The notes beneath the pieces were generated by a model. It was not told the origin of the DNA. It ran no database searches and was given only the letters and a program-made list of their open reading frames with translations. 64,000 nt of DNA from contig NC_090777.1 of assembly GCF_040054535.1 (NCBI RefSeq), positions 16,378,001 through 16,442,000 on the forward strand, given 5' to 3'. Source of the DNA: Antennarius striatus. Its lineage: Eukaryota; Chordata; Actinopteri; Lophiiformes; Antennariidae. The translations under genes were made by a program, and so were the position numbers. This document shows positions 7,001-49,118 of this stretch, piece by piece; position 1 is the stretch's first letter; each line of letters starts with the position of its first letter.

Positions 7001-7226
7001 TCCAGAGGAGAGATAGTGAATATATTGGTAGAAGGATGCTGAGTTTTGAACTGCCAGGCAGGAGGCCTAGAGGAAGACCAAAGAGGAGGTTTATGGATGT
7101 AATGAGGGAAGACATGAAGGTAGTTGGTGTGAGAGAAGACGATTCAAAGGACAGGGCTAGATGGAGGAAATTGATTCGCTGTGGCGACCCCTGAAGGGAA
7201 AAGCCGAAAGGAAAAGAAGAAGAAGA
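4094..7226 (+). mobile_element. RTE-clade LINE, apparently full-length coding copy
   Basis: A non-LTR retrotransposon of about 3.1 kb inserted in an older LINE. It consists of a short 5' leader with the motif CCGGTCCCAAGCCCGG, one long open frame and a very short 3' end closing in GAAGAAGAAGA. Termination a few dozen bases after the stop, with a GAA-type microsatellite tail and no poly(A), is typical of the RTE clade (RTE-1, BovB, Expander). Three truncated relatives occur in this window at about 13.8, 15.1 and 26.6 kb, all on the plus strand and with highly similar 3' ends. No clear target-site duplication could be seen. The clade is inferred from layout and protein; the exact family is not assigned. 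Confidence 0.85.
4207..7194 (+). CDS. RTE-type LINE polyprotein: AP endonuclease plus reverse transcriptase
   Basis: An uninterrupted frame of 995 codons from the ATG at 4207; the frame is open back to 4126 and the next in-frame ATGs are at 4222 and 4402. The apurinic/apyrimidinic-type endonuclease comes first, with VGTMNVGTM, the catalytic VQETRW glutamate, SGYAP, GADFNGHVG, VDYIL and a KQHRM histidine (in the place of SDHR). The reverse transcriptase follows, with PDDIP, NYRGIKL, QYGFMPKKSTTDA, FVDLEKAYDRVPR, GLHQGSALSP, the catalytic FADD at 6439-6450, and FKYLGSTVQ. The C-terminus holds a basic LRWFGHVQRR / GRRPRGRPKRR stretch and ends RCGDP. The protein would nick chromosomal DNA and copy its RNA at the nick. 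No stop, frameshift or lost catalytic residue is visible, which is unusual among the window's elements and points to a recent, possibly competent copy. Confidence 0.9.
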   Translation: MRIKPMTSIPDRSRPGLTTTAIGAVDLQGAGGNWITVGRRRRGGKCVRTKKEKRNTKSIGLRVGTMNVGTMTGKGRELVDMMQRRKVDILCVQETRWKGSKARSLGAGFKLFYHGVDGKRNGVGVILKEEFVRNVLEVKRVSDRVMSLKLEIEGVMFNVVSGYAPQVGCELEEKEKFWSDLDEVMQSMPRSERVVIGADFNGHVGAGNRGDEEVMGRFGIQERNAEGQMVVDFAKRMEMAVVNTFFQKRQEHRVTYKSGGRSTQVDYILCRRCNLKEISDCKVVVGESVAKQHRMVVCRTTLVVRKMKRAKAEQKTKWWKLKKEECCMTFRKELRQALGGQEVLPDDWTTTANVIRETGRRVLGVSSGRKVDKETWWWNEEVQECIQRKRLAKRKWDTERTEESRQEYREMQRKVKVEVAKAKQEAYDDLYARLDSKEGETDLYRLARQRDRNGKDVQQVRVIKDRDGSLLTGASSVMGRWKEYFEELMNVENEREQRLEEVTVVDQDVAKISQDEVRRALKRMKNGKAVGPDDIPVEVWKCLGEVAVEFLTGLFNRILDSEKMPEEWRRSVLVPIFKNKGDVQSCGNYRGIKLMSHTMKLWERVVEARLRAEVNICEQQYGFMPKKSTTDAVFALRMLIEKYREGQRELHCVFVDLEKAYDRVPREELWYCMRKSGVAEKYVRTVQDMYEDCKTVVRCAVGVTEEFKVEVGLHQGSALSPFLFAMVMDRLTDEVRQESPWTMMFADDIVICSESREQVEEKLEKWRFVLERRGMKVSRSKTEYMCVNERDPSGRVRLEGEEIKKVEDFKYLGSTVQSNGECGKEVKKRVQAGWNGWRKVSGVMCDRRVSAKMKGKVYKTVVRPAMLFGLETVSLRKRQETELEVAEMKMLRFSLGVTRKDRIRNEYIRGTAHVRGFGDKVREARLRWFGHVQRRDSEYIGRRMLSFELPGRRPRGRPKRRFMDVMREDMKVVGVREDDSKDRARWRKLIRCGDP

Positions 7227-7968: not shown

Positions 7969-8650
7969 CTAATGCATGTTAAGTTGAAATATAAGCCGTA
8001 AACCACAGATATTATTCACATAATCTACATGTTGTAGATGTGTGTAAAATGATGTCCAGCATACACACTAGTCGCGAACAACCCTTTAATTCTTGTCTCT
8101 TACGTAGATTTATTGATCGTGATTTGATATTGATTTCAACGTTTATCTTTAAGATGATAATAAAGCAGGTGCCCCCCCCCCCGTGTCCTTGGAGGTGTCT
8201 TTGTGATGAACTGTAATACTGTTTGTCACCAAACGGTGGCGTGAAAGCTTCACTCGTTGAGGTGGAGCCCGTCTACAACCTGTGGAAGACTTGTCAAGTC
8301 TTCGGGTTGCACGTACTGGTTTCTGGAAATCTCTGCAGGTCTCATCCAGGTTGGAACAGTACACTACATAGTACTTGATGTTAATAAACGTGTCCTGAAG
8401 TGCTATTCCAATACTGTTCCAACAATACAATCAATACAATTGATATACAGCATATCAATTGGAAAATATGAGAATAGGAGAACACATGTAAACTAATAGA
8501 ATACTAACATTTGGTTTGACTTTCTAAGATGATGTTTTATTCTGATGCTTTATTACATCCCGCTTTTGTGACTGCCTTGTTTTATTTATGGTGTGTGCTG
8601 CACGGACATCGTGGAAATGACTTTCCACCGAACAGGAAGCTCCTACTTAT
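7963..8650. other. Intergenic stretch, nothing recognised
   Basis: No coding signal or recognised repeat. It contains a C10 run near 8173-8182. Confidence 0.5.
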
Positions 8651-8721
8651 TTAATGTCTCTTGTCTGTCAGCTCAGGTTCATTGACTTTTCCGCTCTGAT
8701 CGCTTCTCCCTGCGGATGGAC

Positions 8722-8829
8722 GGGGTGGGCGGGGTGGATGGGGTGGATGGGGTGGGCGGGGTGGATGGGGTGGATGGGGTGGGCGGGGTGGATGGGGTGG
8801 ATGGGGTGGGCGGGGTGGATGGGGTGGGG
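8722..8829. repeat. G-rich 27-bp minisatellite
   Basis: Four copies of a 27-base unit built from three 9-mers (GGGGTGGGC, GGGGTGGAT, GGGGTGGAT), almost perfect. The plus strand has G4 runs every 9 bases, so it could fold into G-quadruplexes. Open frames across it (WAGWMGWMG on plus, HPAHPIHPI on minus) are artefacts of the periodicity. It lies 22 bases 5' of a GACGCGTGCC site and 50 bases 5' of CCATCTGTTG. Confidence 0.95.
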
Positions 8830-8850
8830 GTACCGTGAAGTCTCGTGCTT

Positions 8851-8935
8851 GACGCGTGCCGCTCTCGACCATCTGTTGCTCCGGTCTAACCGTCTCAGAC
8901 ACTGGGCACAGATTGACAGACAGGACATTCCCACG
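8851..8935. promoter_or_regulatory. Candidate regulatory cluster: GACGCGTGCC, CCATCTGTTG, TTCCCACG
   Basis: Within 85 bases there is a GACGCGTGCC (8851-8860; class C Hes-type core), CCATCTGTTG with a CAGATG E-box (about 8869-8878) and TTCCCACG (8928-8935), the reverse complement of the RBPJ/CSL consensus CGTGGGAA. The same first two words occur upstream of hes2 copy 1 beside another G-rich minisatellite. Function is inferred from motifs alone. Confidence 0.35.
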
Positions 8936-9029
8936 GGAGGCCTGATGGGTTCAGTTCCCTGAGGGAAAGGCAGAATAGGGACTATAAGTTCATAAGTTCT
9001 TCTATATTATTCAATTATATTATTATATC

Positions 9030-9030
<1 letters not shown>

Positions 9031-9078
<48 letters not shown>

Positions 9079-9089
9079 CGTGCGTGCGT
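9031..9089. repeat. (TG)n microsatellite passing into (TGCG)n
   Basis: A TG dinucleotide run that ends in four TGCG-type units. Confidence 0.95.
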
Positions 9090-9245
9090 ATAAATATACG
9101 TATATACATTTACTGTGGGCTAAAAACGGTGAGGTTACTTTATATTTACCCCAACGTTTTCATATTTTTTGTCGGCTTTTGTGATGTTAATTTCGTTTAA
9201 TGATGCTTAATAATCAGTAAAATGGCAATAAAACTATGTTAGTGG

Positions 9246-9380
<135 letters not shown>

Positions 9381-9603
9381 ATAAATATGTTGTTCATTAT
9401 TTGGTCGCGTTACAGAATGATATGCAGATACTCGGCATAAAACACAAAAGTACGGGAGACACAAGGTTTAATCATGCGCTGCTGATCTGGACTCTTTTCC
9501 CAGGGTTCCTTATTGAGGCTTTTCTTCAGCAACAAACTAAATCCCTATTGAACTGGAAATGATCTGCCAACGGTTTTCCTCCCCAGCCTGGGAAAGCTGG
9601 GAT

Positions 9604-10110
9604 ATTTCTTGCACGCGTCGGGCGTGCGACAGTTATTCAAATTGGTTTAAATTATTCAGGCGTGGGTCCAGTCTGTTGTCCACGGTCACAGCTGCTGCTG
9701 CGCGGGAACATTTAAATTACCACTCAGGTTCATGCTGTCAATCGCTGGGGTGCAGCTCCTACCGAGACAATGTCAAGCCTTCAGTTAGGAAGTACGACTT
9801 TGCTCTTATAAATTACACCTGACAGACCTGGCTGACCGTGCAGAATCAGCTTTATGAGCGGGTTTCCTGTCTCCTGTAATTTATTTTTGGATTATCACTA
9901 AAAAATAATTGGAGTAGCAATTTTCAAGTAAACAAAAATAATATGATTATTTATAATAATTGTTTATATATATTTTTTCAGTTACCATGAAGCATCATAT
10001 ATTCAAATCTACTCTGCTGTGACGTAATGGCCTGCAGGACACGTCACGGCCCAGCTGCTGGACGCGTGTCACAAAATAATTGCTATTGCTTGAGCGGACC
10101 TGGACGCGTG
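9604..10110. promoter_or_regulatory. Cluster of three ACGCGTG (Hes class C-like) sites
   Basis: CACGCGT at 9612, ACGCGTG at 10062 and ACGCGTG at 10104 occur within 500 bases. The last is part of GGACGCGTGCA, an 11-mer repeated exactly at 20463 and 29064 upstream of the two hes2 genes. No gene is recognised here. The regulatory role is inference from motif recurrence. Confidence 0.3.
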
Positions 10111-13100
10111 CAGGGAGAATGCCTTCAGTCCGAGTGGAGCCACTGAGAAAAACACCCTATCGCATTTATATGAGTTAAAATGTGATCGTATAAGATTTCC
10201 TAATTTTTAGTTGTAGTGAAAAATAAAATTATATTATATAAAAACGAGACTATAATTCACCCATTTGCTGTTCACCATAATTGATTGCAGGAAGTGTAAA
10301 TATATGCTTATAAAGAAAGAGACGAGACAAGCACACTTTATTGATCCGTTGAAAGAAGACTAATGCACACAGAGAACAAATGACTTTATTTATCCTTCTT
10401 CATTCTCCCAGCACAAAACGTATTTTTGCATCACCCCCCCGTATCTGCTTTTCTTTGTTCTTCCGTTTGAATCTATAAGAATGAAAGAAATGAGAGAGAT
10501 GAGAGAGAAATCACAGAGATGAATTCATACCAATACAAATGAAAGTACATTTAAAAAGAATAACTTGTAAATATTTTTCACACGTTTGAAATTCAAGAAT
10601 GTCTGATACTGTCTTTTTTTTAATGAAAGGTTGTCAGGCCACCATTAATTACTTGGAATTGTGATATAGAATACAGGTATTATGCTTTTAATGAGCTAAT
10701 TCATAAGCCATACAAACAAGCCTCTCTGTTATGCTTCAAAGGCGATTTGCTTTAAAAATCACCATTAAAAATTCCATTCCTGAAATGTCCATTCTAATTT
10801 TTTTCTCTTATTAGTAGACAGCATAAATAATTTTCATACAAATGTTATCATATTAGTTAAAAAAACAGACTCCAGACAAATGGATTTATAGCAAAGTATC
10901 GAGTTATATAAAAGTATGAATGCTATTCTTAAACGATCCTTTACTGTATTGTGATTATATGAGGGAAGTTCTTGTAATATAAGGTAATTATATATTTTGC
11001 TCCTGTTTTTCTTACAACGTTAAGACAAAAATTCGGATGTCCTCTGTCTCCTTGAACTCAACATGAAACCATGTTATCTGTCCCAGTCACCCACGTGTCG
11101 CAGTGTGAATTTCTTGTCACTCCCACACTCATTAGATGCTTACAGAAACAGGACAACTTAACTAGACAGGCGTTATACAAATGCAGCATTTATAGTGGAA
11201 TGCTAAAAATGGTTTAGATACCTGTGTTAATATGTAAATATGTACAGTAGTTAAATTGTTTATCACTGTCTCCCTCTATTTAACGGTAAGGATAACTTCA
11301 CTACGGACATGTGATATACTGTACAATACAGATTACATGTACAGCATGTCTCAACCAGAGTCACGTGTTGCAGTTTAAACATCCAAAAGCAGCATCTTAC
11401 TGAAAACGACACCAAACGCACCACTGATTAAAAAGCATTTTACATTTACAGAAATAGACATCTATGCTATTTAAACAGCAAAATGAAAACAGTAGGGACA
11501 TGAAGCTGATATATCACAAATACTACAGTATACGCTGCACATAAATAACGTGATCAAAGGATAAAAGGCTATCAATAAAATAATATTGGAAAATCACCTG
11601 CCAGGATGTCATTCTGTTTTCCCTCGAACCCTTCGTGCTCGCAGGTCTTCTCTGGTTGTGGTTATGGACTATGCTTGTATTCAGCGCCCATTTCCAGCGT
11701 GATGTTCGGGGCTCAATGACAGAGACGCGCTCTCTTGGTGGGCGGGCTCCTCGACAGGCCACGCCCCCCTCCCTTGACTCACCCGCTTCAGGACTGTGAA
11801 AAGCTGAACTGATAATGGTGAGATATTTAATGTAACAAAGGGATATTTGGTTTATTTGCGCAGTCTCCTTTAAGTTTGAATTTGCGTCTCAAATGCAAAC
11901 AAGATGGCATTAAGTGTTGTTGTTGTTGTTGTTGTTGTTTTTAATATAATCTGATTCTATTATGAGCATCTTAAAAGTAAATTAAACACTTTTCAGAAAA
12001 TAAAATAAATATACTCATAGCATTACATTCTGCTGTGCATATAGAATATCATCTTAACGTACACTAAATACCTTTTTCCTGATTAATCCCCATGCTCTTT
12101 AATTCCCCACCGGACCATTGTTAATGGCCCATGTGTCTGTGTAACCCCAAAATAATGCATGGGAGCAGGAAAGCCATCTGCTGCTTTTGTTCGCCCGGCT
12201 CGTGCTGTTCTCGTGCCTGATATAGTAGCACAATAGATCCCCTTCAAGCAGAAGTTCAATATTCAAAAAACCCGCCAGCCTGCCTGTCCAATGCCTGGCT
12301 GTCCAATGCCCCTGCAGCAGGTCCAGTCTACAAAAGACGCATTCTTATAATTTGCAAAAATAAATTGCAGTTTAGTTAGAAATCCTAAGATTATGAATTT
12401 ATATAAATAAATGATCTTTAATTGAACAGTAAAGTTGTTTAAATAAACCTGATAACACGCGGAGGCGCACCGAGCTGGAGACGACAGCTGCGCACGGAGA
12501 CGCTCATGTGACGCAAGAAGTTTTGTCAATTTTTAAGAAGCAAACAAATTTGCGCCACCAGATGTGAGGTCCACCCTGCAGCGTGGCTTTTGGCTTTGTT
12601 TGGTTGTCTGTCAAATCTTTTTTTTTTTTTTTTTTGAAACCTTACGCATGAACAATTGGGCAAAATGTTTCCCCGCCTCTGAAAACGACGCCACCGTCGA
12701 TGCTCCTCACTGTTTGGCTAGACGTCATTTTTAAAGGTAACACTGAGCTGCACAATGAACCCCAAAGCGTCTGTTAGGTTATAAAAGGACGATTGGTCTT
12801 TGCGTGACATGTCTCAAACCTCTCAACAGTGTTTGCCCGATAGTTTTGATTAAAACATAACCTAAGCCTTCAGCCAACATTATTACTGCGTTATTGTGCA
12901 CATATTTGCTTACATGAATGAAATTGACCAATTGACTGGACCTAAAGCTGATATTCAAGAACAAAGATCACAAAAGCAAATAGGAAAAACTTATAGAGGA
13001 TGTAAAACAGCAAGATCTTTTCAGCCTGAATCAATATTTATGATAGCATTAATGGTAAAAAGCATGTCATCGTTTTTGCGGCACTTAATTTGATTTTTTT

Positions 13101-13785
13101 GCTCGGATTGTTGGAAGTTTTTTGTTAATTTTATTTAGTAATTCATCTACATCTTTCTTAGTGTTTCATTTACCAAATTAATCTTATTGGTGCTGATGCA
13201 GAATTTGGTGCAAAACAAGTGACTTCAAATGCATGAATACACTATGTATTTGTCGCTGGTGAAGCAGATGCTTTCTGAGACAGCGTGGTTTTAAGCGTGG
13301 GAAGCTTCCTCGCAAATTCTGATAGGTCCTCCGAGGAGATGTCACATCAGCATTTTGACAAAATCATAACATTTCACTGTTTTTCAGAAACATGAAATAT
13401 TTTTAGAAATAGTTAGTCTATAGAATACAATGATAACTTTCCTCCTGCTGATTTAGTACAGTACAGTTTTTCCATCTGTAAACGTCAACGTTGCCCGCAG
13501 CTCAGTGATAGCCCCACCATAATGGGCAATGAATACAACAAAAATATATGTCCATAAAACTGCTACAGTATTAGACATCTATGAACCAGTAGAAGCTAGA
13601 AGTGAGTAATTTTTTAGATCAAATCTCTTCAGATAAATCATGAGACGTTTACCAGGTCTGGTCGTCCTCTCTAAACTGAGAACTAAAACTTTTCCTTACT
13701 AAAGTGAGAAACCTGCCCATGAAATTTTTTAGAGATGAACAAATACTATTCAAAAAGAGGATCATATATGCCACCACACTGCACT
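10111..13785. other. Long AT-rich intergenic stretch
   Basis: About 3.7 kb without a recognised gene or transposon. Small items: a piece near 10336 reading ACTTTATTGATCC like a common fish repeat, a (TTG)n run near 11918-11938, a CACGTG near 11093 and another near 11364, and a T17 run near 12620. Open frames at 11523-11762 (minus) and 12263-12529 (minus) show no domain. Confidence 0.5.
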
Positions 13786-14703: not shown

Positions 14704-15128
14704 GATTGATTAAGTGAGATAAATAAAATGAGATGAATAAATTGAGATTAATACAGTGACATGAGCACAGTGGTATTAATACATTGAGATGAATACAGTG
14801 AGATGAATACATTGAGAAAAATACAGTTAGATTAATACTTTAAGAAGGACACAATGATATCAATAGAGTAAGATTGGTACATTGAGCTGTATGGAGTGAG
14901 ATGAGTACAGTACATGGAAGAGAGTATAGTGAGATTAATACAATTACATGAGTACAGTCAGATTGTACACTGTGAGATGACAATAAAATTGATATAGTGA
15001 GATGAATACAGTTAGACTAATACAGTGAAATGACTACAGTCAATTAGTACAGAGAAGTGAGTACGATGAAATTAATACAGTGAGATGAATACAGTGACGT
15101 GAGTACAGTGAAGAGAGTACAGTGAGAT

Positions 15129-15787
15129 TAGCCGCAGTAAGACAGAGCACATGTGTGTGAATGAGAGGGACCCAAGTGGAAGAGTGAAATATCAGGGAGA
15201 AGAGATTAAGAAGGTGGAGGATTTTAACAGTCCAGAGCAATGGAGAGTGTGGAAAAGAGGTGAAGAAGCGTGTACAGGCAGGATGAAACAGGTGGAGGAA
15301 CGTGTCAGGTGTGATGTGTGATAGAAGAGTTTCAGCTAAAATGAAAGTTATAAAAAACTGTGGTGAGTCCAGGGATGTTGTTTGGTCTAGAGAAAGTGTC
15401 ACTGAGGAAAAGACAGGAGACAGAGCTGGAGGTAGCAGAGATGAAGATGCTGAGGTTCTCTCTGGGAGTGACCAGGATGGATAGGATCAGGAATGAGTAC
15501 ATCAGAGGGACAGCACATGTTAGAGGTTTTGGAGAGAGAGGCCAGACTGAGATGGTTTGGACATGTCCAGAGGAGAGATAGTGAATATATTGGTAGAAGG
15601 ATGCTGAGTTTTGAGCTGCCAGGCAGGAGGCCTAGAGGAAGACCAAAGAGGAGGTTTATGGATGTAGTGAAAGAGGACATGAAGGTAGTTGGTGTGAGAG
15701 AAGAGGATGCAAAAGACAGGGTTAGATGGGGGCAATTGATTTGCTGTGGCGACCCCTGAAGGGAGAAGCCGAAAGGAAAAGAAGAAG
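15129..15787 (+). mobile_element. RTE-clade LINE, 5'-truncated copy
   Basis: Begins at the sequence corresponding to position 6537 of the full-length element (AGCCGCAGTAAGACAGAG) and runs to the GCGACCCCTGAAGGG end with a GAAGAAG tail. It carries several small deletions relative to the intact copy, including one in the FKYLGS region and one in the GDKVREA region, which shift the frame. Nucleotide similarity to the intact copy is otherwise very high. It is flanked by the 14-bp satellite on both sides. Confidence 0.92.
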
Positions 15788-18579: not shown

Positions 18580-20100
18580 TATAGTTTCATGGTTGGAGTC
18601 CATTTGAAAAGGGTGTACATAGATGATTTTGGAGCTAAAGCAGACAGTTACTTTTTTTTTTTTTGGACAAAAATACGCTCCATTTAATTAGGAATGCCCT
18701 ATTTCAGCAACTCGAAGCAAAATAGTTTATAGACTGTATTAGCAGTGTTGTTAAAATCATATAGAAAAGGATATTTTTCAGAAAACATCAACGTAATTAA
18801 ATTCAGCTTTTTATCTGCTTTTGATAAAAGAATGCACACAACCAAATGACTAAGTCACTGATGACCTCAATCTGTTCAGTCAACCACCAGTCTTTCAGAC
18901 AGTTCAGGTCCCTGACATCACATCCAGAGCTGTCAGGTGTTCTCTGCATGACTTCCACTGAGATGGAGACAACTGGGTTACATGTCATACTTTATACAGG
19001 TCAGTATTAAAACAGGACTCCGTTTATGGTGTTAAACACATTACTGGACTCATCTTTTTAGCTTGTGAACTGATTTTCAGGGAGGGTTTGTAACACTGCA
19101 AACGAGAAACAATGCAAGAAAGATTTGCCCTATTCTGTGTCGGGTCAGGATAAATCAGAAAAATACTCCATCAGCTTACTATTTTGTCTTCAGGCCTAGA
19201 TGATTTTCAAAATTTTGTGACTTCAAACCTTCATGAGTCATAGATTCAATAAGTCTACTCTTCAGGAGGTTACACACATCAAATATAATATGAATATTTT
19301 TGTACATTTGTGTTTTCTACACACTGTGTGTTTGTATAATCTGTTATTAACTACCATTTTGGGATTGTTACCTACTGTCCATTATTAACCTTTTTGTTTA
19401 GCAAGAAAAATAAATTCACTGTAATATTTAGAAAGATTTTAATGTTCATTGTTTCCAGTCAGACTCCCACAAAGTCTGATATCTAGATATCTAGAGTCAA
19501 CAGTATAATTTTCTGTCTTCTATTCTTTTGCACTGTGTATTAAAACACGTCACCTTACAGATTTTGATTGGAAAAAAATTTTATTTATGCATTTTAAACA
19601 GTATCTCACAGCACTGTTTGATGAGGAGAACAGTGGAACTGTGGAAACAGTTCTAAAATGGGATGATACTTCATCACTATTATTTAAAGTAAAATTCAAG
19701 TGACAGTTGTTGGCTAAAACTTGACATCATTTAAGCATTTAACTTTAGCAATCAGCCATGAATGCCACCATATAACAGAATATAACATTAAAGAATATCA
19801 TATTGCGGTTTTTTAAAACTAATTTTCTTTAAGGATTTCATTACAAACTGTGAACAACAGCTGGTTGATTCAAACTCAACTTGATGCTCCATAATGACGC
19901 GGACAATGTTGGCATAGCTTTTGACTTGGGATGCCAGACATCCTTTCAGCGGTAGGTTAAATTCACAAGCTGAAAACCATGCAGTAACGGGAAGCCTCAA
20001 ATGCAGCCAATGGAGACTATCACCTCCCGTCCGTCCGGAGTCCGTTGGAGCCCCCGGCGTTACGCATCAAAACCCGGAGGCTCCAACTCCAATAATAATA
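18580..20100. other. Intergenic stretch, nothing recognised
   Basis: AT-rich, no supported gene or element. Confidence 0.5.
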
Positions 20101-20135
20101 TTTAATAATCAGCAAAATGGCAATAAAACTATGCT

Positions 20136-20256
<121 letters not shown>

Positions 20257-20324
20257 ATGTGATATTCCTCTAACAAACGTCGTCAATCTACTTTTCAAAC
20301 AAAGGGTCACTGTGTTCTCGTTTT

Positions 20325-20475
20325 GCACAGATGGATACCCAAGCTGAAACCAGGACAAAAAGGGTCCAACCGAAGCTTCTCTTGGACTTTTTTTCCTCCA
20401 TACTTCCATGAGGCAGTTCCCAGACTGGACTTGGTGGCAGTTATTTCGGGCCCCATGGGGCAGGACGCGTGCAAA
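20325..20475. promoter_or_regulatory. hes2 upstream block 1, copy A
   Basis: Starts GCACAGATGG (CAGATG E-box) at 20325 and includes GGACGCGTGC at 20463, 138 bases later. A comparable stretch lies upstream of hes2 copy 2 at 28933-29075, with the same two words 131 bases apart and an alignable middle (GACAAAA, then AGG, then AACCG, then AAG). It sits about 1.9 kb 5' of the hes2 copy 1 start. GACGCGTGC is the reverse complement of GCACGCGTC, a class C Hairy/Hes core. Shared ancestry of the blocks is read by eye; enhancer function is inferred. Confidence 0.45.
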
Positions 20476-20922
20476 GCCGCGCATTTAATGTTTGCTCAAA
20501 GGAGGGTTACAGAAGAACCCCCCCTCCCCCCCAGCTCCAGCAGAACATCTTTCAACCGAGAAACAACTTCTTATTACAGATTAAATTAGATTATGTACAT
20601 GGTCTTATGTTTGAAGAGCATCATTAAAACGAATCATAAAACTCCAAATTAATTTGATTCGTGCATTTAGTGAACTGTTTTAAAACAACTTGGTCATGTC
20701 ATCATGTTAAAGGGGCCTCACCAGTATTTAAAGTTCAGTTCAGTGTCTGTGGAGTGTACAGCGTTTTAATAATATGTGTATTCTTTGCGGTGAGCACAGA
20801 TGCGTCAGTAATCTGTTGTCAGGTCACTGTTGATTGTGAGGGGGTGGAACAGGAGATGCTGATGGGAGCCGAGCGGGTCCACGGCGGGACGCAGAGACCG
20901 GGGTGTGGGGTGTGGAGACGGG

Positions 20923-20972
20923 GGTTGAGGGGTGGGGGGTTGAGGGGTGGGGGGTTGAGGGGTGGGGGTGGG
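20923..20972. repeat. G-rich 15-bp minisatellite upstream of hes2 copy 1
   Basis: Three perfect units of GGTTGAGGGGTGGGG plus a partial one. G-quadruplex-capable on the plus strand. It ends 7 bases before the CCATCTG of block 2. An equivalent but different G-rich minisatellite precedes block 2 of hes2 copy 2. Confidence 0.95.
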
Positions 20973-20979
20973 ACTTGTT

Positions 20980-21017
20980 CCATCTGTTGAGCGGTTGTGG
21001 CGCGTGCCGAACGCGTG
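20980..21017. promoter_or_regulatory. hes2 upstream block 2, copy A, with GGCGCGTGCC site
   Basis: CCATCTGTTG (CAGATG E-box on minus) is followed by GGCGCGTGCC at 20999-21008 and ACGCGTG at 21011-21017. GGCGCGTGCC is the exact reverse complement of GGCACGCGCC, the high-affinity class C sequence reported for Hairy/Hes repressors. The matching piece upstream of hes2 copy 2 (30046-30079) reads CCATCTGGTAG, then GTGGCGCGTGC, then AACGC. It lies 1.2 kb from the start codon. An autoregulatory element is the natural inference but is untested. Confidence 0.5.
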
Positions 21018-22094
21018 AATCCTGTGGCATGTCAACGCGCTGCTGCCCCGTCCGTGGAAAAGAGAAGACACCGTGGAAAGGGTCCAACTGAGTCTTGTGG
21101 TCCAAATAAATATGAACTGTTGGATTTAAAGATCTGCTTGTGGATTTTAAATATTTTATCAGTTGTATAAGCAGTTGCTCAAGGCTTTTACCGTTATTTC
21201 CTCCGATACTTTTTGCCATGCATGTTGAAGTAAACTTGTCTATAATTTTATATTATCATACTTTATATTATTATTATTATGGGTTTTATCTTTTTGGTGT
21301 TCAGAGGCGCACATAGCCGTCTTTGCTTGTGTTATATGTTGTCATGCAGTTTCCTCCCCCACTGCTCCAGGTAAATAACAAGTTGTTGGAATTGGAACCA
21401 AGCTGTTGAGGCTCCACAAACAGATGTTAATCCATACGTAGCGTGGCTTGGGTTTATTAATTGTTGGAATAGATTAGTCATCTCACCTCTGAGACATGTC
21501 TGCTCTGCTTTGTATTTGTTTTGGCGGGTAGACAAGCCACACCTTAAAGCCTATATTCAGACAGAATGTATGTGTTTGATTACTTTGTGCTTCGACAAGG
21601 ACGAAAAGTGTTTACTTATAGTAATACATCAGTCAGGCATTTCCTCACACTAAACTACCGGTAATGATCTAGGATTTGAGCGCTCATGTAACAAAACGAA
21701 CAAGATAATAAAATGAGATATATAATAAAAATGATTATTTTAACAACAAATATCGATCCATCTAAATAGGGCGCAGAAAAGGGACATACTGTAGAAAACC
21801 ACCAACTTGCAACTACCTGAACATTTGTGAAGGAAAACAGCATCCTCGTAAGTCTGAGAATCAATTCAAGCATAAATAAACAAGGATTTCAAATTTAAAC
21901 CCAACAATGTGCAACTTTATAAGAAAAATGTCGCATGCCAGCGGAAACCAGCGGCAACCAGCGGTAGACCGAGGGTCCCGATGGGACCAGATGGTCCGCT
22001 AATCAACCCAAAACACGACCCCACCCCCAACCCCCCCAGTGTCAAACGCCTAGACCGCGGCTTGTGTTCCCTCCCCTCTGACGCTCCGGGCTCA

Positions 22095-22103
22095 CATAAA
22101 TAG
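22095..22103 (+). promoter_or_regulatory. TATA-like box of hes2 copy 1
   Basis: CATAAATAG 99 bases before the ATG, in a G+C-rich context. hes2 copy 2 has GATAAATAC at nearly the same distance (88 bases), which supports both as core promoters. Just upstream are three direct copies of CCAGCGG (21938-21967) and an inverted repeat GGTCCC/GGGACC (21974-21988). Confidence 0.7.
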
Positions 22104-22193
22104 GAGCCTCTCCTTCTCCTCCGCACACTCGAGCTGAGCCGCTCCAGAAGAAGTTTCTCCCTTCAACAAGCACAACATCACCCACAAAGCGCA

Positions 22194-23014
22194 ATGAGCC
22201 CCAGCCTTGCTGCCGAGGCCGACCGGCCTGTCACGGCCAGGTCCACTGTTGCCCAGAGAAAACAAGCCAACGAACTGAGAAAGGTAAGGAAAAGATTCTA
22301 AATATATCGTTTTTCATTTTCATGAATGTGTACCCCCCCCCCCTTCCCAATTGAGTCTGCAGACCAATAACGTGTCTTGTCCTTGATTTCTTCTAGACCC
22401 TTAAACCTTTGCTGGAGAAGAGAAGACGTGCACGCATCAACGATAGTCTCAGCCATCTGAAGAGTCTGATTCTTCCTCTGGTTGGTAAAGACAACGCACG
22501 CTACTCCAAGCTGGAGAAAGCCGACATTCTGGAAATGACCGTCCGTTTCCTCAGAGACCTTCCTTCCAGTCCCATCAAAGGTAAGCATCATTTCTTGAAC
22601 TCCCATTCAAGTTATTTTATTTGACTTTCTGGATTATCTTCTGTAAATTCAAGCCACTGATCAACTCTTTTCCCCCCTCCAGATTCCGCTGACAGTTACA
22701 GAGAAGGCTACAAAGCCTGTCTCCAGCGCGTCTCAGCTCTGATTCCCAAAACGAGCCTGGATCGGGACGCGTGTCAGCGCATGAACGACTTCATCCAGCA
22801 GTCCGCGCCGGCTGCTGTCACCCCAACCTGCCTGAACTGCTGCGCTCAGAATTCCAGGAATCTCCCTCAGATTCATCAGAGACTCCAGAGCCTCAAATCC
22901 AGCTTCAGCACCAGACTGGAGAGCCAGTCACGCAGCAGCAGCAGCGCGGTGGCTCCAATCCGAGCGCAGCCGGGCCCACAAGCTGTCAACACGGCCATGT
23001 GGAGACCCTGGTAG
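22194..23014 (+). CDS. hes2: Hes2-like bHLH-Orange transcriptional repressor, copy 1
   Basis: Coding exons are 22194-22283, 22397-22580 and 22683-23014 (606 bases, 201 residues), with GT-AG junctions (AAG|GTAAGG, TTCTAG|ACC, AAG|GTAAGC, CTCCAG|ATT). The basic region contains the Hes-type proline ([15 protein letters not shown], residues 31-45), which favours class C CACGCG sites over E-boxes. The helix-loop-helix runs to about residue 85 ([17 protein letters not shown]). The Orange domain begins near [17 protein letters not shown] (95-111). The protein ends in WRPW (198-201), the Groucho/TLE recruitment motif. The helix sequence closely resembles human HES2. As a nuclear repressor it would act in cell-fate decisions, often downstream of Notch. 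Unlike copy 2 it has no intron in the loop. The two copies form a tandem pair; which one equals zebrafish hes2.1 or hes2.2 was not determined. Confidence 0.95.
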
Positions 23015-23436
23015 CTCAGATGGACACTTCTCTCATGTGTGTTATTTATTTCATGATGCTATGTCATTTGTACTTTAATAGTGGTAGCTGAAGCAAATAT
23101 GAGTATAAGAATAAGTGACTGTGTAATAATATTATTCAGTATTTGACTCATTTTGTGTTAAATGCCAGAGAGCACAGATCTCAAAGAAACTGAAGTCTAT
23201 GAATGTTTCAAATGCAATCCTCTTTGGGGTTTCAAAGACATGGGTTGTAGACAACACTTTTGTAAAACCCCAAGGGTTATTTTGTTCGAGGTTTGCACAA
23301 TTGACTTAAAAGTATTTTGGTCTGTGCAAAGAAATATATGTAAACACTATGTGTTAAATAGATTATGAGTCATTAGCATTGTGTTAAAAAAATGTTTTGG
23401 AATTTTGGAATATTCTGTCATTGTCAAAAGCGTGTC

Positions 23437-23442
23437 AATAAA
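23437..23442 (+). other. Polyadenylation signal of hes2 copy 1
   Basis: AATAAA about 420 bases after the stop codon; it is the only canonical signal noticed in the AT-rich 3' region and is followed by a TG/T-rich stretch near 23464-23480. Confidence 0.65.
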
Positions 23443-23684
23443 TTAACTCCAGATAAAAATGACCGGGTTGTTTGATCCTTGATTTTTATCGTGATCTAAG
23501 GATTTTGGGTTTATCATTAAATCTAAACTCTTCTTGAAAAGACTCCGCGTTTGAAAAGAGTAAAAAAAAAAAAAAAAAGGCGCGCAAACACACAAGAAAA
23601 CTGGTCCGTCTGCACCCAGTCATGCCGATGAGCAGCTGCTCCATTGTTGCTGATGAGAGGCGCCTCTGAGTTTACCGCCAAAGT

Positions 23685-23692
23685 GGTGGGAA
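23685..23692 (+). promoter_or_regulatory. CSL/RBPJ-like site downstream of hes2 copy 1
   Basis: GGTGGGAA matches the (C/T)GTGGGAA RBPJ consensus at 7 of 8 positions, in a locally G+C-rich patch (23578-23740) 670 bases after the stop codon. A single short match; weak evidence. Confidence 0.25.
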
Positions 23693-23759
23693 AGAGTCGG
23701 ACTGGTTGTGTGAAGGGACACACACTGAGGTGGCTGCAGTTGTGAAGCACAATCACAAA

Positions 23760-26573
<2,814 letters not shown>

Positions 26574-27338
26574 GATGGCAGAGGAGTTCAAGGTGGAGGT
26601 GGGACTGCATCAGGGATCAGCTCTGAGCCCCTTCTTGTTTGCTATGGTGATGGACAGGCTGACAGACGAGGTTAGACAGGAATCTCCCTAATGATATTTA
26701 CAGATAACATTGTGATCTGCAGTGAGAGCAGGGAACATGTGGAGGAGAAGCTAGAGAGGTGGAGGTTTGTCCTGGAAAGGAGAGGAATGAAGGTTAGCCG
26801 CAGTAAGACAGAGTACATGTGTGTGAATGAGAGGGACCCAAGTGGAAGAGTGAGGTTACAGGGAGAAGAGATCAAGAAGGAAAAGGAAGGAAGGAAAAGA
26901 GGTGAAGACACGTATACAGGCAGGATGGAACAGGTGGAGGAAAGTGTCAGGTGTGATGTGTGATAGAAGAGTTTCAGCTAAAATGAAAGGAAAGGTGTAC
27001 AAAACTGTGGTGAGACCAGCGATGTTGTTTGGTCTAGAGACAGTGTCACTGAAGAAAAGACAGGAGACAGAGCTGGAGGTAGCAGAGATGAAGATGCTGA
27101 GGTTCTCTCTGGGAGTGACCAGGATGGATAGGATCAGGAATGAGTACATCAGAGGGACAGCACATGTTAGAGGTTTTGGAGATAAAGTCAGAGAGGCCAG
27201 ACTGAGATGGTTTGGACATGTCCAGAGGAGAGATAGTGAATATTTTGGTAGAAGGATGCTGAGTTTTGTACTGCCAGGCAGGAGGCCTAGAGGAAGACCA
27301 AAGAGGAGGTTTATGGATGTAGTGAAAGAGGACATGAA
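26574..27338 (+). mobile_element. RTE-clade LINE, 5'-truncated copy, left part
   Basis: Matches the intact element from about position 6317 (GAGGAGTTCAAGGTGGAGG) to GAGGACATGAA. The catalytic FADD has become FTDN, there is a deletion just before it, and the FKYLGSTVQS segment is replaced by a short A/G-rich stretch, so it is non-functional. The C-terminal frame at 26902-27351 remains readable (VSGVMCDRRVSAKMKG, LRWFGHVQRRDSEY). Its 3' end is displaced by a 242-base insertion. Confidence 0.92.
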
Positions 27339-27580
27339 TAAAATGTCTTAAGGAGATGTCCCAGCTTTACTAAACTTGAAGGTTGAAGTGTACAGTGAGT
27401 GTTCACTGCAGTGATCCTCCCTTTGTTTGACCTACTCGTTGTGTCTGGAAAGAAGTTTGCGCGCTTCAGAAATGAATCTAGTCTTTGTCGACAATCTCTT
27501 GTCGTTTGTCCGTCTGATCCTTCGTCATTACTATATGTTCTTCTCTACAAATACATTATTACAATTCCTATGTTTGTGAG
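27339..27580. mobile_element. 242-bp insertion inside the RTE copy
   Basis: This segment separates two contiguous parts of the RTE 3' region. Its core (27401-27531) is nearly identical, in inverted orientation, to 28488-28614. No TIR or clear duplication was seen at its own edges, so its class is unknown. Confidence 0.7.
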
Positions 27581-27690
27581 AGTTGGTGTGAGAGAAAAAC
27601 ATGCAGAAGACAGGGTAAGATGGAGAAAACTGATTCGCTGTGATGACCCCTGAAGGGAAAAGCTGAAAGGAGAAGAAGAAGAAAAAGAAA
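27581..27690 (+). mobile_element. RTE-clade LINE, 3' end of the interrupted copy
   Basis: Resumes at AGTTGGTGTGAGAGA and continues to GACCCCTGAAGGGAAAAGC with a long GAAGAAG-type tail. Together with 26574-27338 it is one truncated insertion. Confidence 0.9.
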
Positions 27691-27734
27691 TTCTTTAATT
27701 TTAGTACTTTGAGAAGAGCAAAACAATAGTCAAC

Positions 27735-27800
27735 TAGACTTGCTTTAGGTTGGTTGAGGATGTTTTACCTCTCATCCAAGAGGCTTTTTCAAGTTCTATC
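27735..27800 (-). mobile_element. Interspersed-repeat fragment (CTCTTGGATGAGAGG type), minus strand
   Basis: ACCTCTCATCCAAGAGGC with flanking AAGTT is the reverse complement of the AAG(A/C)CTCTTGGATGAGAG word also found at 30189-30210. Both are remnants of one fish repeat family; limits are unclear. Confidence 0.5.
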
Positions 27801-28487
27801 TGCGTGGAGAACCAAGATATGAAAAACAAACAAGCACACAAAACAAACAAAATCACCAAGACGATGAGTTGTTAGGAGTCATATGGACTACACCGTCTAA
27901 GTGTGAGCAGTTTTCTGTTAGTTTTAAAAACTGTGTAAACTGTAAAAACAATAAAACAATAAAAATTAAAGTACAGTAGTGTGATTGACAAAGCATGATT
28001 TTATTGCTTTACATTCCCCTCCGGCTGTCTCATGTATTTCATCACCAGAGCACCAAAGCTCTGGAGCAGGAGAGAGGCTATAAATAGACTGTATTTGGTA
28101 ATTTTCAACAGATCCTGTGGTTGGATTTGATTATCAAGTACATCTAAACTGGAGAACTAATGTGATAAAAATTAATTGCGTCAAATGTACAGATGAAATA
28201 TAATTCTCTGTCCTCTGTGAGAGATATACAATTCAGATTGATGCTGTCCTCAAACCTTCAAATGAAACTTCATGTTATATTGGTAGAAGTCCTCATACAT
28301 CTGTGGTCAAATATGGTTGCTATTAGACAGTTGTTTCACTCTTGTAATTGGTGTAAATGCTCTTGTATGGTGATTTTTTCTCTCTTTTTTTGGCTAATGT
28401 GATATTTTCATTGTTTTTTTACACTCAGTAAGACAGAAAGTGTCACAAATATAGGAAATGTAATCATGTATTTGAGCAGAACATAAA

Positions 28488-28614
28488 GTAATGATGAAGG
28501 ATCAGATTAACAAATGACAAGAGACTGTCGACAAAGACTAGATTCATTCCTGAAGCACGAGAACTTCTTTCCAGACACAACGAGTCAAACAAAGGGAGGA
28601 TCACTGCAGTGAAC
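28488..28614 (-). repeat. Inverted copy of 27401-27531
   Basis: About 127 bases that, read on the minus strand, match 27401-27531 closely (GTTCACTGCAGTGATCCTCC at one end, TGATCCTTC(A/G)TCATTAC at the other). The copies are 956 bases apart and could form a stem or be ends of one element. Confidence 0.9.
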
Positions 28615-28932
28615 GCTGAAGATGTATAGTTTTTATTTATTCAGCTATAAAAACATAATTTTGTACTAAATATTATATCTTATATCAATAATTTTATACA
28701 ATTTTTCAGTCATGACCTGCTGAGGGTCAAGTGCAGAGACCAAACGTTAAATAGGTGTTTATTCTCGGTTGTTGGAGAGCACGGAAACATTCAGAAGGCT
28801 CTCGTCTTCATCCAACTCATATCACGCTGCAGCTCCATCCGTGTTCCTTCTCATCCCAGAGTTTACTGGCGATTCTTAATTCCCATGAAGAGTTGGGACG
28901 GTGTCAAGACAATGGCTACTTGTTATCCGGTG

Positions 28933-29075
28933 GCACAGATGGGATACCGACGCCGAATTTTTTTTGAAAAGACAAAAGAGGACTCTAACCGTAAGGGGAA
29001 AACTGAGGAGAACCCTCCCTCATCCTCCTCCTCACCGCTCCATCCCAGAGGAGGGGCGGTGAGGGACGCGTGCAG
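28933..29075. promoter_or_regulatory. hes2 upstream block 1, copy B
   Basis: Starts GCACAGATGG and reaches GGACGCGTGCA at 29064, as in copy A (20325-20475). The shared order of E-box, GACAAAA, AACCG(T)AAG and GGACGCGTGC indicates a common origin. It is 2.5 kb from the hes2 copy 2 start. An open frame running over it (28885-29130) shows no domain and is not called. Confidence 0.45.
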
Positions 29076-29920
29076 CAAGTGTGCCTGTCACCCTCAGGGC
29101 ATCCCATGTTCCAACCGAAACAATGGGTGATGTCTGCGTGTTGGTCACCTTCACATTTAAACTCTGTTTACGTTCTTTAATTTTTATTAAAGAAGGTAAT
29201 TAATGAATTAAATACAAACAGATCTGCCTTGAAATATGCCGAAAAGCCTCCAAATGGTGACTAACGCGCTGTTAAACGCGAAAAAATTAAATTGACTGAA
29301 TGATTCTGGAAAAAAAAAAAGCTTATACTGGACAAATGTAATATTTCATCACCATTTTTAAATATTATACATTTTAACTCAGTGTCCGTGTTATCGAAAT
29401 CTACTTGGATGATCTATTTTGTAAATACTCATCCCACTATGAAGTGCGTTTTCAGAAAGAAGCCTACAATAAAGACTAGTCATGCAGTCTGCTCGTCAAC
29501 ACAAACATCTTTCAGAATAAGAACAGATTGAGCTTGGTGTGTGTGTGTATCCTGTAGTTATATCATATTCATAAACAACCGTCCTGTGATGGCTTGGACG
29601 CTAAACTATCCAGGAGTCAAGCCTGATGAGACAATTGTAGCGCAGCTTCAATGGGGGCGGTGGGGGGGGGGTTGTAGACGGGTTTGTTTCAGTTGTACAC
29701 TAACATCATAGACACTCAGGAAGCATACAGATGGGGCACCCACGCCAAACCAGCGTGGAGATAATGTGTCATGCGAGTTCAGGTTATAGAAAAAGAGCTT
29801 GCAAACATGTAAAAGCACCAAACGGGTGTGAGGGTGTGTATGCGCGCGCATGGATGAAGGGGTCGAGCCACGGAACACGGAGATTGGCCACTCGGGATCC
29901 TGGTGTGGGGCAGAGGTGTG

Positions 29921-30024
29921 TGTGGGGGGCTGGGGAGCAGTGGAGGATGTGGAGAAGAGGTGTGGGGGGCTGGGGAGCAGTGGAGGATGTGGAGCAGAGG
30001 GATGGGGGGTGAGGAGCAGAGGGG
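29921..30024. repeat. G-rich 40-bp minisatellite upstream of hes2 copy 2
   Basis: Two nearly perfect 40-base units (starting TGTGGGGGGCTGGGGAGCAG) and a partial third. Open frames across it on both strands are artefacts. It occupies the same relative place as the 15-bp array in front of hes2 copy 1. Confidence 0.93.
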
Positions 30025-30045
30025 TGAAAGCTCGGTAACAGAGGG

Positions 30046-30079
30046 CCATCTGGTAGCCGTGGCGCGTGCAACGCACGTG
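30046..30079. promoter_or_regulatory. hes2 upstream block 2, copy B, with GGCGCGTGCA and CACGTG
   Basis: CCATCTGGTAG (CAGATG E-box on minus), GGCGCGTGCA at 30061-30070 and CACGTG at 30074-30079. It aligns with 20980-21017 over about 35 bases. It lies 1.4 kb 5' of the hes2 copy 2 start. CACGTG is a class B site, also bound by Hes/Hey proteins. Confidence 0.5.
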
Positions 30080-30137
30080 GTTCCCCAAGGTGCCGTGGTA
30101 TTTGATGGGTTGTCACGTCTTTCCAGTTTTGGGTCCA

Positions 30138-30300
30138 CAAACGAACTATCCAAAGCTGTTTAAATCAATCCACATGGACTTGGACTGAAGAAGACTCTTG
30201 GATGAGAGACGACACGTCTTCAAGAGCTTTCTTAAAGTTCAGTGGATTGATGTAAACAGCTTTGGACAACCATGACCTGGATGACTGACAACCTACACAG
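30138..30300 (+). mobile_element. Short repeat element with 24-bp inverted arms
   Basis: The arms at 30150-30173 and 30242-30265 are complementary at 23 of 24 positions and enclose AAGACTCTTGGATGAGAG, a word of a common fish interspersed repeat. The piece is probably a fragment of a transposon tail; its superfamily is not assigned. Confidence 0.6.
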
Positions 30301-31395
30301 ACATCGTCCACAAACAAAGCATCACAGCGGCAGAGGACTATGGTTGGGTGAGTAAATGAATAAAGTGGGCAAGTCTATATAATAAATAGTTATAAAACTC
30401 CTTAAAGTCCGGGCTTATTCACATATTTCGGTTATCACTGATAAGTGCGCCCTACCGACCCTCATGTTACTGCCCCCACCGCCCTGAACGAGCTGTTGAC
30501 AGCTGTGGACAAAGATCCTACAGGTAGACACTCCCCTGGGCAGACAGAGCAATAAAAAAAACGTCCCATGTTGTCACAACCTAACAGCAGCTGTTATTTG
30601 AAAGTAGCGTGGCTTGGGTATGAGATTGGATTCAGAGTCCATAACTCTGTGGACACTTTTCTTCACGCAAGCCTGACCCCTATCTGAGTTACACACGTGT
30701 TGCACCCAAATGCTAGTGGCGTTAATATATTTATTTACAAAGTATATCTGGTCTGAAAGGTATTTTATCAAACTTTAACAATAAAAAAACAAAACAAAAA
30801 CCACACAATAAAAGAGAATAATACCTATCCGATATTCAAAAGTGAGGTAAACAAACAACTAAATCTAGAATCCATCATAGAGAAAGCATTTTATTGTATT
30901 CTTTTGTTTAATAGGACACAAAATAAAATAAATAAATATAACCAAGATTTTACAATTGGTTCACCTCTGCACTGCAGTACATTGATTTTATCTGGTAACT
31001 AAACTTATTTATGTATTCTACATACAATATATTATATATAATATTAACCCCAAAAGAGTATGTATGTCTGTGAGTTGTTAATTTACAATAATTTGTAAAT
31101 GGAAGACTTGCAGAGTTAGGATTTGATTTGATTTGATTCACGTATGATGCGTGAATATTTAAAGATTCTCTGCGTCCATTTTCAGCTTCGCGACGCAGTT
31201 TTTGGTTGGATTGATCTATGGCTCACAACACAGACAGACAATGGAATTGTTACGCATTCATTATAGAAGAGGACAGATGGCAATGTTGCTATATTTTCGA
31301 GTTTTCTATTGGTTTCATCGAATGCTTGGCTATTTCAAATCGTTTAGTGTTGGCTTGGGGGCGGACCCGTGACGCACGGAAGTGGACGCCACAGA
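30301..31395. other. Intergenic stretch before hes2 copy 2
   Basis: AT-rich with no gene. A small inverted repeat TTCACG/CGTGAA (31137-31155, 7-base spacer) was noted about 340 bases before the start codon. Confidence 0.45.
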
Positions 31396-31399
31396 CCGG

Positions 31400-31408
31400 G
31401 ATAAATAC
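31400..31408 (+). promoter_or_regulatory. TATA-like box of hes2 copy 2
   Basis: GATAAATAC 88 bases before the ATG; position and sequence parallel the CATAAATAG of copy 1. Confidence 0.7.
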
Positions 31409-31487
31409 CGCAGCTCCAGCCCGTTGAAGACACATCCTTCTCGACCTCTGTTTTGGACACTTCTCCGACATAAAGAGGACTCTGAAA

Positions 31488-32390
31488 ATGTCTCCCAACA
31501 TGACTTGTGAATCTCTCCAATCATATTCTCCAAGGCAAACTGTGGCTAAAAGAAAGGAGGCCCATGAGCTCAGAAAGGTGAGTGAAGCTCAGAAATTTTG
31601 CTTTGTGCCATAAATTCCTCGTTTTGTCAGTAATGTAACGAATTCATAAATCAATTGTTTGATTTTTAGATTATGAAGCCTATGTTGGAAAAAAGAAGGC
31701 GCGCCCGTATCAACGACAGTCTGAACCACTTGAAAAACCTCATCGTTCCCCTCACAGGCAGAAAGGTAAGTTATTTATATACAATATATACAGATAAAAT
31801 CCTGAATGTTCATGTAAGTCATGTGATTAACATTTGATTTTAATGTTTTGTTTCCCCCCCCCCCAGATTTGCTACTCTAAACTTGAGAAAGCCGACATCC
31901 TGGAAATGACTGTGAGGTTCCTGAGCGACATCCCTCCCGGGAACGCTAAAAGTAAGTTATCCATCTGTTTATTACGTTCTGAGCAATAGATGAATACCCG
32001 TACAGAGGACTCGCAGTTGTCGTTCAAGCACAGAATTAATATTTTTATTCTTTTCCAGAATCCACAAATAGCTACAAAGACGGATACGGAGCCTGTCTCC
32101 AACGCGTTTCGGCTCTGCTTCCCAAAACGACTCTGGATCAAGACGCGCGTCAACGCGTGAAAGACTTCATTCGGCGCTCTACGTCTGCCACCCTCACCCC
32201 CACCTGTGTGAACTGTTGCTCTCAGAGCTCCACGGGCGTTTCTCTTATTCAAAAAAGACTTATAAACATCAAATCCAGCGTCGGCGCCAGACTGGACAGC
32301 CAGTCCCGTGGCAGCAGCGGAGCGATGGCTCCCACCAGATCGCAGCCAGACCTGCAGCCTGTCGGCGCTGTCCTGTGGCGACCCTGGTAG
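31488..32390 (+). CDS. hes2: Hes2-like bHLH-Orange transcriptional repressor, copy 2
   Basis: Coding exons are 31488-31577, 31670-31765, 31867-31951 and 32059-32390 (603 bases, 200 residues), with GT-AG junctions (AAG|GTGAGT, TTTTAG|ATT, AAG|GTAAGT, CCCCAG|ATT, AAA|GTAAGT, TTCCAG|AAT). The basic region [15 protein letters not shown] (31-45) has the Hes proline, the second helix is [17 protein letters not shown], the Orange domain starts near [19 protein letters not shown] (94-112), and the protein ends WRPW. Exon 1 (90 bases) and the last exon (332 bases) have the same lengths as in copy 1, proving tandem duplication. The extra intron lies in the loop (TGRK^ICYSK), which is one residue shorter than in copy 1. 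Four coding exons is the ancestral layout for this family as far as I know. Expected role: Groucho-dependent nuclear repression. Confidence 0.95.
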
Positions 32391-32852
32391 AGATTGAGTT
32401 AACTAGTGTTTCACGTTGGATGCATATCCGGAAAGCATCGCTTGTAAATAAACGCAGTGATTCATCACCTCGTTTACGTTGATGATAAGTTAGAATTCAT
32501 CGTTAAATCGTATTTGTTGAGTATTATATACTTACTTTTTACGCACGAGTCCGTTGTCCTGTTTAAGTTGACAAATGTAGACAGTCGTATTTATTCCAAA
32601 TCTGCATGTATGTATCTGTTATAATTTAGACCTCTCCGAGGACTAAGTGAATAAGGGCCATTGAAACAGCCCTGTAAGACCCTAAGGGTCAGTGTTTATG
32701 AATCTGCACGACAGACTTCTATGTCTTGAGTCTGAGCAGATGAACTTTGTATGCATAATATGTGTTAATTGAAGTTTCTCTGTTGGGATGTGCTATTTTT
32801 GCTATTTACAGCAGATGTGAATATAAATGTGTATATATATTATATAACTAAA

Positions 32853-32858
32853 AATAAA
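32853..32858 (+). other. Polyadenylation signal of hes2 copy 2
   Basis: AATAAA about 465 bases after the stop, followed by a TTGTCTTGTTTTT stretch. The distance matches that in copy 1. Confidence 0.65.
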
Positions 32859-32999
32859 ACTACGATGTAGTTAAATCTTGTCTTGTTTTTATTTAAACGT
32901 TCATTTGATGGATACGCAATTTAAAAAAAAAAAGGCACCTTTTTGAGGTGCTATTCTTCCAACAAAAAGAATATCAACAGCTGAAGACCTCAGTGGACT

Positions 33000-33413: not shown

Positions 33414-49118
<15,705 letters not shown>

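Follow-up and report, generated by a model that had tools for sequence, protein, structure and literature searches.

Shared upstream words in two tandem hes2 genes of the frogfish Antennarius striatus

The two hes2 genes found in tandem and in the same direction in a 64,000-nucleotide stretch (the window) of the genome of the frogfish Antennarius striatus are preceded by the same short sequence words in the same order, and this collinearity exceeds what is expected by chance. Both genes, here copy A and copy B, code for repressors of the basic helix-loop-helix (bHLH) type, and their duplication looks old from the sequences compared. The upstream words are likely to be conserved control DNA. 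A fuller reading, to which we give an even chance, is that they are remnants of a single ancestral hes2 control region, kept by purifying selection and working as a feedback switch between proneural and Hes proteins. Paralogous conserved non-coding elements are a kind of finding that is already known. Among the papers listed by our literature search, none dealt with the upstream elements of fish hes2 genes; Soelter 2006 and Nishimura 1998 (mouse Hes2 promoter) may contain facts that bear on the promoter.

Collinear words before the two genes

A first-pass annotation, made by eye, had described two blocks of words, a G-rich minisatellite and a TATA-like box upstream of each hes2 copy, and the coordinates of all these parts were confirmed. 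We compared the upstream interval of copy A (20257-22193) with that of copy B (28620-31487) through the best collinear chain of exact words, a test independent of the word list of that annotation. Without masking, the chain beat all 300 dinucleotide shuffles and also the reversed and reverse-complement versions; with the tandem repeats masked, none of 500 shuffles reached it at any of three settings. Real sequence served as a second control: the masked chain scored 77.8 and was reached by none of 3526 other interval pairs of the window in both orientations (best score, 72.6), these pairs overlapping one another, so that they are not independent, and some of the top ones being the A/B pair itself in a shifted position. 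The series of parts is thus collinear beyond shuffled and real-sequence controls, as is characteristic of paralogous conserved non-coding elements. Two sets of words pass separately, since the words of the first-pass annotation still stood when a shared 16-base word was removed (0 of 500 shuffles as good), and the chain with the 16-base word still stood when the annotated words were removed (again 0 of 500).

Local alignment of 241-base neighbourhoods against 500 shuffles each, the type of check that the annotation had proposed, gave a divided result. Block 1 (from 20295 in copy A and 28904 in copy B) scored 47 against a shuffle maximum of 44, block 2 scored 68 against 66, and the 16-base word 40 against 39. 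All three beat 500 of 500 shuffles, the last two by a small margin, and for block 2 the test is weak because the alignment was unmasked and its score is helped by the G-rich composition. Around GGACGCGTGC 63 of 500 shuffles did equally well, and around the TATA-like box 78 of 500, so we place these two parts by order and position only, and the TATA-like box was not retained as a homologous block. Comparison of the proximal 700 bases, for which 1 of 300 shuffles was as good, reflects AT-rich sequence and was not used as support.

The shared parts are described here from far to near, all of them on the plus strand. Block 1 starts with the E-box word GCACAGATGG, located at 20325-20334 in copy A and 28933-28942 in copy B and nowhere else in the window, and it is the gapped alignment of the surroundings of this word that lies above shuffles. 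The word GGACGCGTGC follows at 20463 and 29064, that is, 138 (A) and 131 (B) bases from GCACAGATGG, in agreement with the spacing annotated earlier. From the same positions, GGACGCGTGCA occupies 20463-20473, with a Hes-type CACGCG on the minus strand and flanks not aligned beyond chance, and 29064-29074. There is a third occurrence of GGACGCGTGC at 10102, where 12 bases match copy B; hence, of the words that the annotation had linked to the hes2 pair, GCACAGATGG and GTGGCGCGTGC are confined to the two copies and GGACGCGTGC is not. The G-rich minisatellites come next and occupy the same slot, at 20900-20972 in copy A and 29920-30019 in copy B. Tandem Repeats Finder called a unit of 40 in copy B and, in copy A, a unit of 7, a unit of 15 at 20920-20968 and overlapping units of 8 and 21, so that the annotated units (15 and 40) are recovered, the former as one call among several.

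Block 2 is formed by CCATCTG and GTGGCGCGTGC, at 20980-21007 in copy A (CCATCTG at 20980, GTGGCGCGTGC at 20997) and 30046-30069 in copy B (30046 and 30059), and GTGGCGCGTGC occurs only at these two sites in the window. The 16-base word GTAGCGTGGCTTGGGT (21438-21453 and 30604-30619) is an exact match and the longest word shared, 441 (A) and 545 (B) bases past GTGGCGCGTGC; no further match to it was found in the window at up to three mismatches. A proximal E-box appears as ACCAGATGGT at 21986-21995 in copy A and as GACAGATGGC at 31272-31281 in copy B, with CAGATGG at 21988 and 31274, i.e., at -206 and -214 from the ATG, a coincidence of position found in 0 of 4000 shuffles. Finally, the TATA-like ATAAATA lies at 22096-22102 and 31401-31407, 98 bases before the ATG at 22194 and 87 before that at 31488; the box annotated at 88-99 bases therefore exists in both copies, in a neighbourhood not aligned beyond chance. 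The 16-base word and the proximal E-box had escaped the first-pass annotation, as had a third composite and an alignable 3' untranslated region (UTR), both treated below. Shortly before block 1 of copy A (20093-20256) there is a stretch 92% identical to 9198-9369, made up of about 40 bases and then a (TCTA)n array, presumably the tail of a dispersed repeat; it lies outside the tested interval and was masked in the interval-pair control and in later tests.

The hes2 pair and the age of its duplication

Copy A (class 1) extends from 22194 to 23014 on the plus strand, with coding exons at 22194-22283, 22397-22580 and 22683-23014 (201 amino acids), and copy B (class 2) from 31488 to 32391 on the same strand, with exons at 31488-31577, 31670-31765, 31867-31951 and 32059-32391 (200 amino acids). 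Each product has a 100% match among the HES-2-like proteins of A. striatus, and the two are 60% identical to each other. Both carry the Pfam HLH domain (E 6e-12 and 2e-11) and have WRPW as their C-terminal end, and their best matches are named HES-2, which places them in the teleost hes2 pair. The copy A exon at 22397-22580 corresponds to two exons of copy B (31670-31765 and 31867-31951), an apparent loss of one intron in copy A. Two HES2 genes are described on zebrafish chromosome 8, with one intron loss and one intron gain reported for the subgroup (PMC3396596).

A tree of 47 proteins, out of at least 175 among the matches listed, resolved two hes2 classes, each including Polymixia, Myripristis, Osmerus and other members, with one frogfish copy in each. 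The branch between the classes had a Shimodaira-Hasegawa-like approximate likelihood ratio (SH-aLRT) of 100 and a bootstrap of only 48, the latter not settled. Within each class the sequences of gadiforms and Lepidogalaxias group together on a long stem, and the two proteins of Aplochiton are sisters to each other. Forcing the two frogfish genes to be sisters was disfavoured by the approximately unbiased (AU) test (p-AU 0.014, or 0.036 with the handfish gene added). Since both classes hold Polymixia, Myripristis, Osmerus and other lineages, the duplication predates their split. Fourfold degenerate sites are identical between the copies at 27 of 54 positions (50%, against 34% expected from composition; P 0.006), and these figures bear out the old duplication assumed by the annotation. 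For the two introns compared, 24 and 84 of 300 shuffles aligned at least as well as the real sequence, and it is because of this that the shared upstream words stand out from a decayed background.

The 3' UTRs do align (23187-23490 with 32599-32893; 0 of 300 shuffles as good). Two small hairpins are possible in them, at 23266-23278/32678-32690 and 23292-23330/32702-32741, and in each, by eye, one pair differs between the copies in both of its bases (A-T to G-C and T-A to C-G). Support from folding is modest, with z of -2.4 (A) and -1.5 (B) for the second hairpin and of 0.1 and -1.0 for the whole 100 bases, and the first hairpin of copy A is found in the centroid only, not in the best fold.

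On the minus strand to the left of the pair (2586-2200), an ankyrin open frame resembles the start of espin, judged by the human protein, and a plus-strand thioesterase domain on the right presumably belongs to acot7. This synteny is ordinary, since espn, acot7 and hes2.2 are also placed together on medaka chromosome 7 in a paper on hes family evolution (PMC8320183). In the right flank, eight more open frames matched no Pfam family, and Rfam at gathering thresholds gave no match within the window. No relative of the copy A protein was confirmed among 13 candidate stretches of viral contigs. A long open frame at 4084-7194 (1036 amino acids; region 4084-7226) has partial copies about 91% identical at 15125-15787 and 26576-27338 and is hence a retrotransposon-like repeat.

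Candidate binding sites and a third composite

CAGATGG is one of the E-box forms that proneural bHLH factors favour. Its neighbour in the two blocks, CACGCG, has been taken for a Hes1 site where it occurs in the Atoh1 promoter (PMC6291236) and is described as a HEY site in JAG1, where the response is lost on mutation (PMC3355086). The extended form RCGCGTGC occurs ten times in the window, counting both strands, against a mean of 0.25 and a maximum of 2 in 60 shuffles, an over-representation that CpG clustering may inflate; three of these occurrences fall at about 42.2-42.7 kb, where a GCACGC simple repeat contains two of the three. Of the ten GCACGCG sites, five lie no more than 150 bases from a CAGATGG (null mean 1.16, P 0.007), and for three the distance is at most 25 bases (null mean 0.21, P 0.0014). 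The second GCACGCG cluster (42234-42697) is more than 3.5 kb from any CAGATGG.

For RBPJ we assumed the consensus YGTGRGAA, and no such site exists on either strand of 20257-22193 or 28620-31487, so direct Notch input from the upstream DNA is unsupported. The Atoh1 E-box (AtEAM) was taken to be RMCAKMTGKY. This consensus is found 12 times in the window, and the occurrences at 8868, 21419, 21986, 30045 and 31272 fall in the three regions considered here; the E-boxes of block 1 and that of block 2 in copy A do not fit it. In the literature the Atoh1 E-box motif is described as CAGCTGGT (PMC6562609).

The third of these regions lies between the espn-like gene and copy A and contains what we call composite C (8717-8875, plus strand), consisting of a G-rich minisatellite at 8717-8827, CGCGTGC at 8853 and CCATCTG at 8869. 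Composites of this type (a G-rich tract with CCATCTG and CGCGTGC within 40 bases) are three in the window, all on the plus strand (C, A and B), the order of CGCGTGC and CCATCTG being reversed in C with respect to the other two. In 200 shuffles of the whole window we obtained a single CCATCTG/CGCGTGC pair, and none with a G-rich tract. The G-rich tracts of the three composites are the strongest of the 64 kb (peak G of 0.72, 0.72 and 0.63; next, 0.57), with the strongest C-rich tract close behind (0.62 versus 0.63). A simple G-quadruplex pattern fits two of the three, including that of copy A (20920-20972) and not that of copy B, and three other matches to the pattern are on the minus strand elsewhere in the window.

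Collinearity with the region around C (8560-13400) is mixed (200 shuffles each, plus strand). For copy A, 6 shuffles were as good when compared with the whole region, 1 with 8560-10140 and 27 with 10140-13400, and for copy B none was as good with the whole region, mostly through AT-rich words, and 15 and 20 with the two halves. A lost third hes2 gene at 8560-13400 is conceivable but was not adopted, since tblastn of both hes2 proteins over the window gave nothing outside the two genes better than E 0.67 and the protein tree has two classes. The region 8560-13400, where no gene was found, also holds Hes-type words at 8853, 9611, 10063 and 10105, one RBPJ-type site (TTCCCACG at 8928), CGTGGGAA at 13296, AGCGTGGCTT at 12580 and TATAAAAGG near 12781.

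Possible origin and role of the shared words

If the words descend from one ancestral control region, its parts would have been, from far to near, an E-box CAGATGG with CACGCG, a G-rich tract with CCATCTG and CACGCG, the 16-base element, the proximal CAGATGG and the TATA-like box. Proneural-type bHLH activators (of the Atoh/Neurog/NeuroD group, with E proteins) would bind the E-boxes and turn the gene on, and Hes-family repressors, Hes2 itself included, would bind the adjacent CACGCG sites and damp expression through the WRPW tail. The two hes2 genes would then share their inputs, with mutual repression as a possibility. Activator E-boxes that adjoin repressor sites upstream of a repressor gene suggest proneural activation damped by feedback, and on these motifs we regard such a scheme as plausible.

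Elements shared within Dlx bigene pairs are conserved between species. The likeness to our case is that Dlx pairs are paralogous developmental regulators for which conserved non-coding elements common to both copies have been described (PMC3695995), whereas the hes2 words are very short, at 10-16 bases, and have been seen in a single genome. With the Atoh1 and JAG1 promoters, targets of Hes and HEY, the hes2 genes share the CACGCG core, present in two places upstream of each copy (PMC6291236, PMC3355086), but the hes2 candidate sites adjoin E-boxes and lie upstream of a Hes gene itself. Likewise, in Hes autorepression loops a Hes gene carries sites for proteins of its own family, which in the account of PMC5665482 are N-boxes and not sites of class C, the type to which CACGCG belongs; in the same account, Hes-Id dimers still repress at class C sites with lower efficiency. 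The Hes genes that are direct Notch targets with RBPJ sites resemble the hes2 pair in gene family and in the upstream position of the control DNA and differ in that the hes2 intervals lack YGTGRGAA.

Several observations weigh against the ancestral feedback switch. Apart from the words having been seen in one genome only, Hes autorepression is placed at N-boxes, and of these a CACCAG separates block 1 from block 2 in each copy, though on opposite strands, and the remaining N-boxes have no counterpart. In competition with CACGTG, CACGCG is also reported to be a much weaker HEY1 site (PMC3355086). CAGATGG is a common word (26 CCATCTG/CAGATGG in the window), and the sequence had already been inspected when the composite and the proximal E-box were defined. 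Four of the 3526 interval pairs held a single word as strong as the 16-base one, three of them being the shifted A/B pair. Lastly, the fourfold sites hold some ancestral identity and the 3' UTRs align, so that part of the upstream likeness could be slow decay.

This last point leads to the strongest competitor, that the words are leftover homology of the duplication under neutral decay, the exact runs being a lucky tail. It fits the residual identity at fourfold sites, the roughly 300 bases over which the 3' UTRs align and the weak chain left when the 16-base word and the annotated words are both masked (9 of 500 shuffles as good), which is itself a further point against the switch. Nevertheless, the introns do not align and the exact runs sit in DNA that is otherwise hardly alignable; by our own estimate a 16-base run would be expected only about 0.003 to 0.015 times (45-50% identity, no indels, about 1900 aligned positions), and the clustering with E-boxes and G-rich tracts would go unexplained. 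We consider neutral decay unlikely as the whole explanation.

It is also possible, and in our view quite unlikely, that the parts are real control elements without being specific to hes2, a module serving the divergent espn-like gene or the whole neighbourhood, with the E-boxes as hair-cell or placode inputs. The position of C between the espin-like exon and copy A, the absence of any hes2 match better than E 0.67 around it and the fit of its E-box to the assumed Atoh1 consensus would agree with this, as would the expression of Xenopus Hes2 in placodes (PMC5035141). Yet C is oriented as the hes2 copies are, away from espn, it lies about 6 kb from the espn-like start, and the literature search gave no expression data on fish hes2. 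That CpG-rich words and simple repeats coincided by chance in upstream DNA rich in GC, and were then chosen by eye, is already disfavoured and very improbable: the words were picked after looking and two neighbourhoods do not align above shuffles, but the repeat-masked chains do not depend on that choice and the third composite was not used in defining the pattern. Gene conversion copying upstream patches between the tandem copies is the least probable, a slight chance at most, because, although other lineages look converted or reduplicated (the sister Aplochiton proteins, and Lepidogalaxias copies 86% identical over 93%), the frogfish coding regions belong to different classes and identities of 10 to 16 bases in unalignable flanks are short for conversion tracts.

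A bolder version of the feedback switch, which we hold as doubtful, is that of a portable three-part device (a G-rich tract, possibly G-quadruplex-forming in two of three cases, and a proneural E-box beside a Hes CACGCG) kept three times across espn-hes2-hes2-acot7, and in the hes2 copies since before the main euteleost radiation. If true, the hes2 genes would be a cross-repressing pair driven by proneural factors and not directly by Notch, and, with class C sites in the loop, Id proteins would open it less easily than they do other Hes loops. Control words rarely remain recognisable between old tandem duplicates. Should these be kept in other fish, they would provide a compact and mutable test case for a pair of repressor genes with one ancestral switch, as well as a test of hes2 feedback without direct Notch input.

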